Shown here: positions 40,597 to 43,448 of the stretch, piece after piece
Layout of the letters: each line of letters begins with the position of its first letter
Position numbering within the stretch: position 1 is the stretch's first letter
Source of the DNA: Candidatus Wallbacteria bacterium
GTDB lineage: Bacteria; Muiribacteriota; UBA6191; JACPRK01
DNA length: 64,000 bases
Direction: 5' to 3'
Assembly (NCBI GenBank): GCA_016213845.1
Contig: JACQZN010000071.1
Location: 62,001 to 126,000 of the forward strand
The notes under the pieces: generated by a model
Seen by the model: the letters and a program-made list of their open reading frames with translations, nothing else
Told to the model about the DNA's origin: nothing
Databases searched by the model: none
Made by a program: the position numbers and the translations under genes

Positions 40597-42213
40597 CTAG
40601 CGCTCGTCGGCTTCGCTTCGGATGCGCTCGTCGTCGCCGGCGGCAGGCGCCCCGAAGGTCCCTACCGAGCGCGAGGGGTTCGCCTCGGGCCTCGTGTTCG
40701 TCACCTGCGACGGCTCGCGCACGGACCCCTCGGGAAGCGATCCACCGGAGCCGGTGGACCCTTCGACTCCTTCTGTCGTCGGCCGCTCGTCGGCGGTGAC
40801 TCCCGACTGCGCCATGAGCTGCTGCAGTACGGCGTAGTCGAGGTTCTTGTTCTCGTACTGGCCTGGCGGGGCGTTCGACTGAGGCACCCAGACGAAGTCG
40901 GGGTGGTCGAATTCGCTTCCGCCCGTCCAGTCGCTCGCCACGATGCGGTTCCGGTCGTCCAGCTTCATCCGGAAGGCGTACTTCACGACCTTCGGATTCG
41001 GCCCGTCGAGGTCGTAGGGGCCGTAGGTGGCATACGTCACGAGCGCCTCGAACCGGTACTCGCGCCGGTCCGCGTCGTAGCGCTGGACGTACTTGTACCC
41101 GTAGGTCGGGTGGTTGTCCTTGGCGTTGTCCGCGTCGATCTCCGTAACGAAAGCCTGGTTGCGCTGCCCCAGGTAGTCGAGGCAGATGCGATGGAAGTTG
41201 TGTGGGTAGATGTCCCGGAACGGCTCTCCGCCGTTGGCCCGCAAGGCCTCCATCGCCCGCACCTGGTCGTCGCCCGAGAAGTTCCCGAGCGTGATGCCGT
41301 TGTAGACGTAGCCGCGCTCGCGTACGCCTCGGCCCTCGAGGTAGCGGCTCCGGATGATGGGGTGGGACATGTCGGCGATGCAGTCCATGAACGACTCGCT
41401 CAGCAGGCCCTTCATGTCGGGCCGCGAGAACTCCAGGGTTCCCGATCGCTGTTGCTCGACCGTGTACTGATCGTCGCCTTCACCGTTCATGTCGTAGGCG
41501 GCGGCGTAGCTCTCGTAGCGCAGTCGCGCGGCCTTCAGCGGCCCGCGGAGCTTCACCTGGGTCACCGCTGGCGGCAGCGGCACCAGGCAGGCGGCAGCCG
41601 CCCAGCCGTTGCAGTGACCGAACCAGCCGTACCGGGCGGCGCCCGGGATCTCCGTCTCGCGCCCGTCCGGTCCTGCCACCTTGATGCCTTTTTGTCGCGG
41701 CTTCTTCTCCTCTTCGGCGGAGACGGGCTTCTCGAAGGCCTTCTGGAAGTAGTTGTGCTTGTTGGCCGGGTTGGCCTCCCAGGCCGCCGCGCGCGGATTC
41801 TTGCCCGTCTGCGTCAGCACGTAGCTGTCGTACTTCTCCAGCGGGGACAGCCACTCCCTTCCGGTCCGGCCCAGCGCCAACCGGCAGGAAATGAACGGCC
41901 AGTAGCCGCTGGACCACGGCAAGCTCTCCTTCTGGACCGTCATGTTGCGCTCGTAGCGCTCCTTGACGACCGGGAAGGACTGGCTGCCCACGACCCGGTT
42001 TCCGCTCACCCAGCGCAGGTCGTAGCTCTCCAGCCGCGTCGACTCGTCGCCCGCCCTGACGATCACGTCGTCGAAGTTGAGCGTGTCTCCCTGGACCCGG
42101 ACCATGCGGTCCAGAGCATCCGCCGAGAGTGCGTCCGGCGTCTCGTCCGGCTGGGCCGACACAATGGCCGTCGCCAGGGCCAGGAGCATGATCGATAGGA
42201 GCAGATGTCGCAT
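40597..42213 (-). CDS. Exported protein with GHCNGWA motif, putative transglutaminase-elicitor-like enzyme
   Basis: 538 residues; signal peptide (LLLSIMLLALATAIVSA). The centre holds ARYGWFGHCNGWAAAACL, a Cys-containing motif resembling the active site of transglutaminase-elicitor (GP42-like) proteins. Later conserved-looking segments are HNFHRICLDYLGQRNQAF and EIDADN, which could supply His and Asp. The C-terminal 90 residues are Ser/Gly/Glu-rich and disordered. Calling it a cysteine-dependent transferase or peptidase is inference. It forms an operon with the exported gene upstream (8-bp gap). Confidence 0.55.
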   Translation of the reverse strand: MRHLLLSIMLLALATAIVSAQPDETPDALSADALDRMVRVQGDTLNFDDVIVRAGDESTRLESYDLRWVSGNRVVGSQSFPVVKERYERNMTVQKESLPWSSGYWPFISCRLALGRTGREWLSPLEKYDSYVLTQTGKNPRAAAWEANPANKHNYFQKAFEKPVSAEEEKKPRQKGIKVAGPDGRETEIPGAARYGWFGHCNGWAAAACLVPLPPAVTQVKLRGPLKAARLRYESYAAAYDMNGEGDDQYTVEQQRSGTLEFSRPDMKGLLSESFMDCIADMSHPIIRSRYLEGRGVRERGYVYNGITLGNFSGDDQVRAMEALRANGGEPFRDIYPHNFHRICLDYLGQRNQAFVTEIDADNAKDNHPTYGYKYVQRYDADRREYRFEALVTYATYGPYDLDGPNPKVVKYAFRMKLDDRNRIVASDWTGGSEFDHPDFVWVPQSNAPPGQYENKNLDYAVLQQLMAQSGVTADERPTTEGVEGSTGSGGSLPEGSVREPSQVTNTRPEANPSRSVGTFGAPAAGDDERIRSEADER

Positions 42214-43100: not shown

Positions 43101-43273
43101 CGGAGCCCTCCCCGCTTCCAGGGCAGATTTCACGCGATTTCAGCCCCGGTTCAGTCTTCCCCGGCGTAGCCTCCCGCCTGTTCTTGCGAGCACGGCCGGT
43201 TTGCGGCTGCGGCACCGCCCGCTCCCGCAAATGAGAACCGCCCCGGGCGGTCTGACGGGCCTTCCGGGGCGTT

Positions 43274-43367
43274 GGAGGCGTGGCAGAGTGGTTGATTGCA
43301 CCGGACTGTGACTCCGGCAAAGGCTCCAGCACGGGGTCTTTCGTGGGTTCGAATCCCACCGCCTCCG
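43274..43367 (+). tRNA. Class II serine-type tRNA with GTG (His-codon) anticodon
   Basis: 94 nt. Acceptor GGAGGCG (43274-43280) pairs with CGCCTCC (43360-43366); discriminator G (43367). D stem is 3 bp (GCA/TGC). Anticodon stem CCGGA/TCCGG with loop CTGTGAC, so the anticodon is GTG at 43308-43310. The variable region is 25 nt (43318-43342) and can form a 9-bp arm with two G-U pairs. T stem GTGGG/CCCAC with loop TTCGAAT. No CCA is encoded. The body matches bacterial tRNA-Ser (3-bp D stem, long variable arm, G73), not tRNA-His (which needs an extra 5' G and C73). Decoding and charging specificity conflict; see findings. Confidence 0.88.
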
Positions 43368-43448
43368 CCCCCGACTCTACCGCCCCCGCCCCCAAGCCGC
43401 AAGCCCGCGCCCGAGCCCTCGCCCCTGCCCGAGCCCGCCGACCCCGCC

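Follow-up and report, generated by a model that had tools for sequence, protein, structure and literature searches.

Serine-type tRNA genes with non-serine anticodons share a promoter type with DNA-uptake and recombination genes in a genus of Candidatus Wallbacteria

The window, the whole stretch of 64,000 nucleotides (64 kb) analysed here, carries a tRNA gene preceded by a leader hairpin and a repeated promoter motif (Table 1). The gene was matched over its full length by the Rfam model RF00005, with 59.9 bits (E 1.9e-10) against a gathering score of 29, and ARAGORN, which reported no other tRNA in the 64-kb window, named it tRNA-His(gtg) at 43273-43370. Read directly, the molecule comprises a 7-bp acceptor stem (GGAGGCG/CGCCTCC), a 3-bp D stem (GCA/TGC), the anticodon stem CCGGA/TCCGG, a variable region of 25 nt and a 5-bp T stem (GTGGG/CCCAC), with one unpaired nucleotide between variable arm and T stem, as in the tRNA-Ser of its own genome. 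Four stems (acceptor, anticodon, variable and T) are present in the minimum-free-energy fold (-41.5 kcal/mol, z = -1.9). With T at position -1, no G-1 is encoded, nor is CCA, the discriminator G being followed by CCC. The initial annotation had described these stems and loops accurately. An ORF with a match to the transglutaminase-elicitor domain (PF16683) lies on the reverse strand at 40597-42213 of the window.

Table 1. Positions, strand and supporting evidence of the tRNA gene and its upstream elements in the window.
Feature	Position	Strand	Evidence or remark
Putative activator-type promoter; boxes TTTCAC 43128-43133, TTTCAG 43138-43143, GTTCAG 43149-43154	43126..43173	+	Pattern search, weight matrix
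-10 element TAGCCT of the tRNA promoter	43167-43172	+	Exactly 12 nt after box 3
Leader hairpin	43239..43271	+	-26.4 kcal/mol; ends 2 nt before the tRNA
Class II serine-type tRNA, anticodon GTG, 94 nt, 7/5, no CCA	43274..43367	+	RF00005, ARAGORN, family alignment, isotype tests
Anticodon loop CTGTGAC, anticodon GTG at 43308-43310	43306..43312	+	Read directly; anticodon same in G001 ortholog
Variable arm, 9 bp with 5-nt loop	43319..43341	+	Fold, family alignment, pair counts
Discriminator G73	43367..43367	+	Alignment; A73 in 5 other complete family members

The genome holding the window (G000; 6.23 Mb, 135 contigs, 84% complete) gave 50 tRNA matches. These include the normal tRNA-His that the initial annotation had proposed to seek, an ordinary class I tRNA-His(GTG) with C73 at G000 C121:76204-76277, and a complete tRNA-Ser set, with GCT and TGA on contig C113 and CGA and GGA on contig C8; the odd GTG tRNA therefore fills no decoding gap. 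CCA is encoded in 40 of the 47 normal tRNAs of G000 and in no member of the serine-type family described below. Apart from the main tRNA set, three low-scoring CCA-encoding tRNAs (Gln CTG, Asn GTT, Ser GGA), possibly with a fourth, degenerate one, are clustered at G000 C36:43297-43552 (L040:198-456), an arrangement that looks like a mobile-element tRNA cluster.

Two tandem paralogs of the window gene, with the same body, the anticodon GTC and A73, are located at G000 C110:93443-93536 and 93643-93736. They belong to a hairpin-plus-tRNA(GTC) unit that is tandemly duplicated in G000 (C110:93443-93736, L039; units 94% identical) and single in the congeneric genome G001, which also holds a GTG ortholog, clipped at a contig end, with its anticodon unchanged. 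The congeneric genome G002 has one GTC gene, one GAT gene in which position 33 is C, and one or two more family pieces clipped by contig ends; its contigs C82 and C389 (L062, L065) break off within family tRNA genes, close to the anticodon arm, and of these pieces, which may be halves of one gene, the 5' half has C33. This inventory is bounded by the completeness of the three genomes (84, 72 and 74%).

Across the six complete family sequences, every one of the 29 base pairs is intact throughout (100% of the aligned cells), five of them changed on both sides, and pairing falls to 39-56% when the partner columns are shifted by 1-3 as a control. Because paralogs and congeners preserve the pairs in this way, the window gene is an intact class II 7/5 tRNA and reflects more than chance pairing; stem decay in relatives, looked for in G001 and G002, was absent. 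The discriminator is A73 in five of the six complete members and G73 in the window gene only, while G34, A37 and C38 occur in every one of them and position 33 is C in the GAT gene. A37-C38 is not unusual alone, since normal tRNA-Ser(GGA), mostly alphaproteobacterial, were the class II tRNAs with G34, A37 and C38 among the examined matches listed in a contig pattern scan.

A covariance model of the family, whose E-values are rough, was run on 40 genomes of the phylum and a wider sample of 382 genomes, and members scoring above 100 bits were confined to one genus. The next-best matches in the 382 genomes reached 76-79 bits and were ordinary tRNA-Ser in every case checked. Scans of viral sequences returned no close family member, and the best similarity in phage records was only about 75%, to genes that are tRNA-Ser where annotated. 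Two class II serine-like tRNAs with the Ile anticodon GAT, on viral contigs L224:5230-5316 and L228:3295-3382, carry an identical odd 3' acceptor end, CCTTATT, and provide separate instances of a serine-type body combined with a foreign anticodon. A connection to Acidobacteria, raised by the initial annotation, found no support, as the phylum of the window gave 40 genomes, far too few for Acidobacteriota.

In G000, the family model scored its own three members at 111-117 bits, followed by the four real tRNA-Ser at 63-73 bits; the Leu and Tyr tRNAs of the genome were not among the matches listed. An alignment with the anticodon masked likewise placed Ser tRNAs first for every family member; since the Ser profile used there is built from more sequences than the other profiles, the pairwise ranking is to be preferred as a test. 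An origin from tRNA-Leu or tRNA-Tyr was rejected on these two rankings. The family carries G1-C72, G2-C71, A3-U70 and C11-G24, which are bacterial serine identity elements, the single nucleotide between its variable arm and T stem agrees with Ser tRNAs, and its T stem is identical to that of its own genome's tRNA-Ser(GGA). As judged from sequence, the acceptor stem, body and variable arm are serine-type. The members thus share with ordinary tRNA-Ser the class II body, the arm junction and the first three acceptor pairs, but have the anticodons GTG, GTC and GAT in place of NGA or GCU. Of the features of tRNA-His, neither G-1 opposite C73 nor a class I variable loop is present in the window gene, which has T-1, G73 and its long variable region. 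The serine-type body and the lack of HisRS determinants proposed initially were thereby borne out. The A73 of the other five complete members may mean weaker recognition by SerRS, and the C33 that replaces U33 in the GAT member should weaken decoding; changes of U33 comparable to C33 are reported in other mistranslating tRNAs (PMC11415595).

At every family locus with upstream sequence, a GC-rich hairpin of -20 to -31 kcal/mol ends 2-5 nt before the tRNA; ahead of 47 normal tRNAs the mean is -11.3 +/- 5.4 kcal/mol. Two of the hairpin pairs are kept despite changes on both sides, and the promoter box, the hairpin and the tRNA are the only parts alignable between G000 and G002, the remaining surroundings being unalignable. 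tRNA genes do not usually have such a hairpin in their 5' leader, and it may act as a processing guide.

In the promoter motif, a TTTCA(G) box occurs three times, at spacings of 10 and 11 nt, ahead of N12-TANNNT. With the weight matrix, the promoter of the window tRNA scored 51 and the rest of the 64-kb window at most 12. The triple-box pattern occurs 11 times in G000, and the two-box-plus-TANNNT pattern 13 times in G000, 9 in G001 and 15 in G002, with no occurrence of the reversed control pattern in these three genomes; their next relatives nearly lack the promoter pattern. About 35 promoters of the triple-box kind were counted in the three genomes, and the TTTCA letters of box 1, which was left out of the two-box search pattern behind the 35 sites, are conserved in 29-35 of them. 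The promoter precedes all seven family loci having upstream sequence (7/7), standing before the first copy only in the C110 GTC tandem, and no other tRNA locus of G000 has a triple-box promoter.

The genes that follow the other sites include ssb and recQ, as well as those for an integron integrase (400 bits with TIGR02249, whose cut-off is 265), a comEA-like protein with a double helix-hairpin-helix, a nucleotidyltransferase-like protein and a type IIG-like methyltransferase, besides several unknowns; dprA is without the box. Several of these genes have a triple-box promoter in G002 as well, among them recQ and the nucleotidyltransferase-like gene, the others being unknowns. The nucleotidyltransferase-like gene is small and conserved (L254/L271/L282) and is assigned by a weak Pfam match below cut-off; its predicted structure (pLDDT 58.5) is too poor to name a substrate and had no match in the PDB below E 0.001. 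Repetitive coiled-coil proteins of variable length are also encoded behind this promoter (L249, L270, L280). We read the triple-box sites as a putative activator-dependent regulon of the DNA uptake and recombination type. A phosphate box of the PhoB kind, considered from the repeat spacing, was rejected, as no phosphate gene was recognised among the genes behind the box.

In Vibrio, integron integrases belong to SOS- or LexA-controlled regulons, and the expression of the integrase with DNA-repair genes, putative here, is a point of likeness. The Vibrio site is a LexA-type palindrome, whereas the present box is a triple direct repeat; LexA was rejected as regulator on this ground, although two LexA-like genes exist in G000 (C54:1850-2464 and C69:55778-56362). 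The chromosomal integron integrase (L259, L275) sits behind a triple box, not a LexA box. Candida tRNA-Ser(CAG) is a further parallel, since it too joins a foreign anticodon and an odd position 33 (G33 there, C33 in one family member) to a serine tRNA; its codon has been reassigned, whereas here the normal tRNA-His is kept and at most ambiguity would result.

Two bacterial groups would be similar in working. As described in PMC7609411, allo-tRNAs (Mukai et al., 2017) are 8/4 or 9/3 serine-type tRNAs of Clostridia, Proteobacteria and Acidobacteria, with GUC among their commonest anticodons. By sequence and structure the family agrees with them in combining serine identity elements and a long variable arm with diverse non-serine anticodons, alongside normal tRNAs (PMC7609411). 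It differs in its defined common promoter, its leader hairpin and its apparent regulon, and it falls outside the allo-tRNAs because the 12-bp acceptor branch (8/4 or 9/3) is replaced in all members by the standard 7-bp acceptor and 5-bp T stem; nucleotide 8 (U) faces C, and the acceptor stem is not extendable. The tRNA-ProX of Streptomyces and Kitasatospora, which works with ProRSx (PMC10365949, PMC11415595), likewise puts several foreign anticodons on one body, has an odd position 33 in some members and probably serves programmed mistranslation. Its body is a proline one, with A34 anticodons and a dedicated synthetase alongside, whereas the family has a serine body and G34, and in the 84%-complete G000 a single full-length SerRS was found, on contig C126, another contig than that of the window tRNA, with no dedicated SerRS paralog. 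The family would resemble allo-tRNA and tRNA-ProX in working and is a member of neither.

The gene family, its conserved structure, its serine-type body and its shared promoter and gene set lead us to lean, slightly, towards inducible missense tRNAs that would place Ser at His, Asp and Ile codons while a recombination-type regulon is on; activator, induction, serine charging, decoding and benefit are what we infer from them. The window gene would then belong, as the one with GTG, to a set of additional serine tRNAs peculiar to the genus, in which the anticodons have been altered so as to read NNC/NNU codons other than those of serine (GUG for His, GUC for Asp, GAU for Ile). It would be transcribed from the activator-dependent promoter common to the integron integrase, RecQ, SSB and ComEA-like genes, the tRNA would be cut out of a leader ending in a strong hairpin, and CCA would be added later. 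Ordinary SerRS, reading the variable arm and the acceptor end and ignoring the anticodon, would charge it with serine. At CAC/CAU the product would compete with the normal tRNA-His, and Ser would take the place of some His residues, at a low level of misreading and only for as long as the regulon is active. As precedent, allo-tRNAs, with serine identity and non-serine anticodons, insert Ser in E. coli (PMC7609411). A promoter type held in common with DNA-uptake and recombination genes suggests deliberately timed mistakes in protein making, and the option of a controlled mistranslating tRNA, one of the fates first envisaged, fits this regulon-type promoter. More tentatively, and with some doubt on our part, missense tRNAs, DNA uptake, recombination and integron cassette shuffling might form one programme in which protein and gene diversity rise simultaneously.

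The main rival to missense decoding is a decoy or regulatory RNA. As a decoy or sponge, the regulon-made look-alike of tRNA-Ser and tRNA-His (or Asp) would absorb a tRNA-attacking enzyme outside translation, for which an anticodon nuclease or a nucleotidyltransferase acting on serine-tRNA ends may be proposed; we consider this unlikely. GTG and GTC both belong to the queuosine (GUN) anticodon class, which some nucleases attack, but GAT does not. Although C33 in the GAT member, A73 and the fact that CCA is not encoded make efficient translation less likely, normal EF-Tu binding would be expected because the T stem equals that of tRNA-Ser(GGA). The nucleotidyltransferase-like gene has the promoter of the family, and MenT3, a nucleotidyltransferase toxin of M. 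tuberculosis, selects tRNA-Ser through its variable arm (PMC11541572), but the link runs through a sub-cut-off Pfam match and a low-confidence structure. Rather improbable in our estimation is a regulatory or processed small RNA, in which leader hairpin and tRNA-like domain would act jointly, for example in transcript stabilising or processing control, and the anticodon would be irrelevant. Hairpin and tRNA do form one travelling unit in all members, alignable together with the promoter box between G000 and G002, and paralogs differ in anticodon; yet the full cloverleaf shows compensatory changes, with the anticodon stem included, the loop, apart from the C33 of the GAT gene, is of the normal decoding type, and the GTG anticodon is the same in G000 and G001.

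A serine donor for a peptide-bond-forming or lipid-modifying enzyme outside translation, its anticodon free to drift, would account for varied anticodons on a constant serine-type body. Most anticodon loops still look decoding-capable, however, and the annotated genes beside the window gene or under the shared promoter include none recognisable as a transferase of this sort, which leaves this explanation very improbable. We give least credence of all to a duplicated tRNA-Ser gene that is neutral or in decay and whose anticodon changed by accident. It would suit the narrow distribution in one genus and the GTG locus, where upstream flank and gene are both about 97-99% identical between G000 and G001, but not the several different anticodons, nor a promoter and hairpin conserved in three genomes while other flanks cannot be aligned with G002. 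The drifted gene of the initial annotation was rejected because the family is multi-copy, with compensatory stem changes, every pair kept, and a conserved promoter in three genomes.

Natural mistranslating tRNAs are known in bacteria, and a 2024 review names the expression of tRNA-ProX genes, in its timing and manner, and a possible benefit of the mistranslation to the host as still unknown (PMC11415595). Serine-type missense tRNAs of ordinary 7/5 shape would add to these, and similar families have probably been overlooked, because annotation tools label their members tRNA-His, tRNA-Asp or tRNA-Ile. In the present genus, a defined promoter links missense-type tRNAs to nameable genes, namely the integron integrase, recQ, ssb and the comEA-like gene, and this shared promoter makes the timing and purpose of such tRNAs directly testable.
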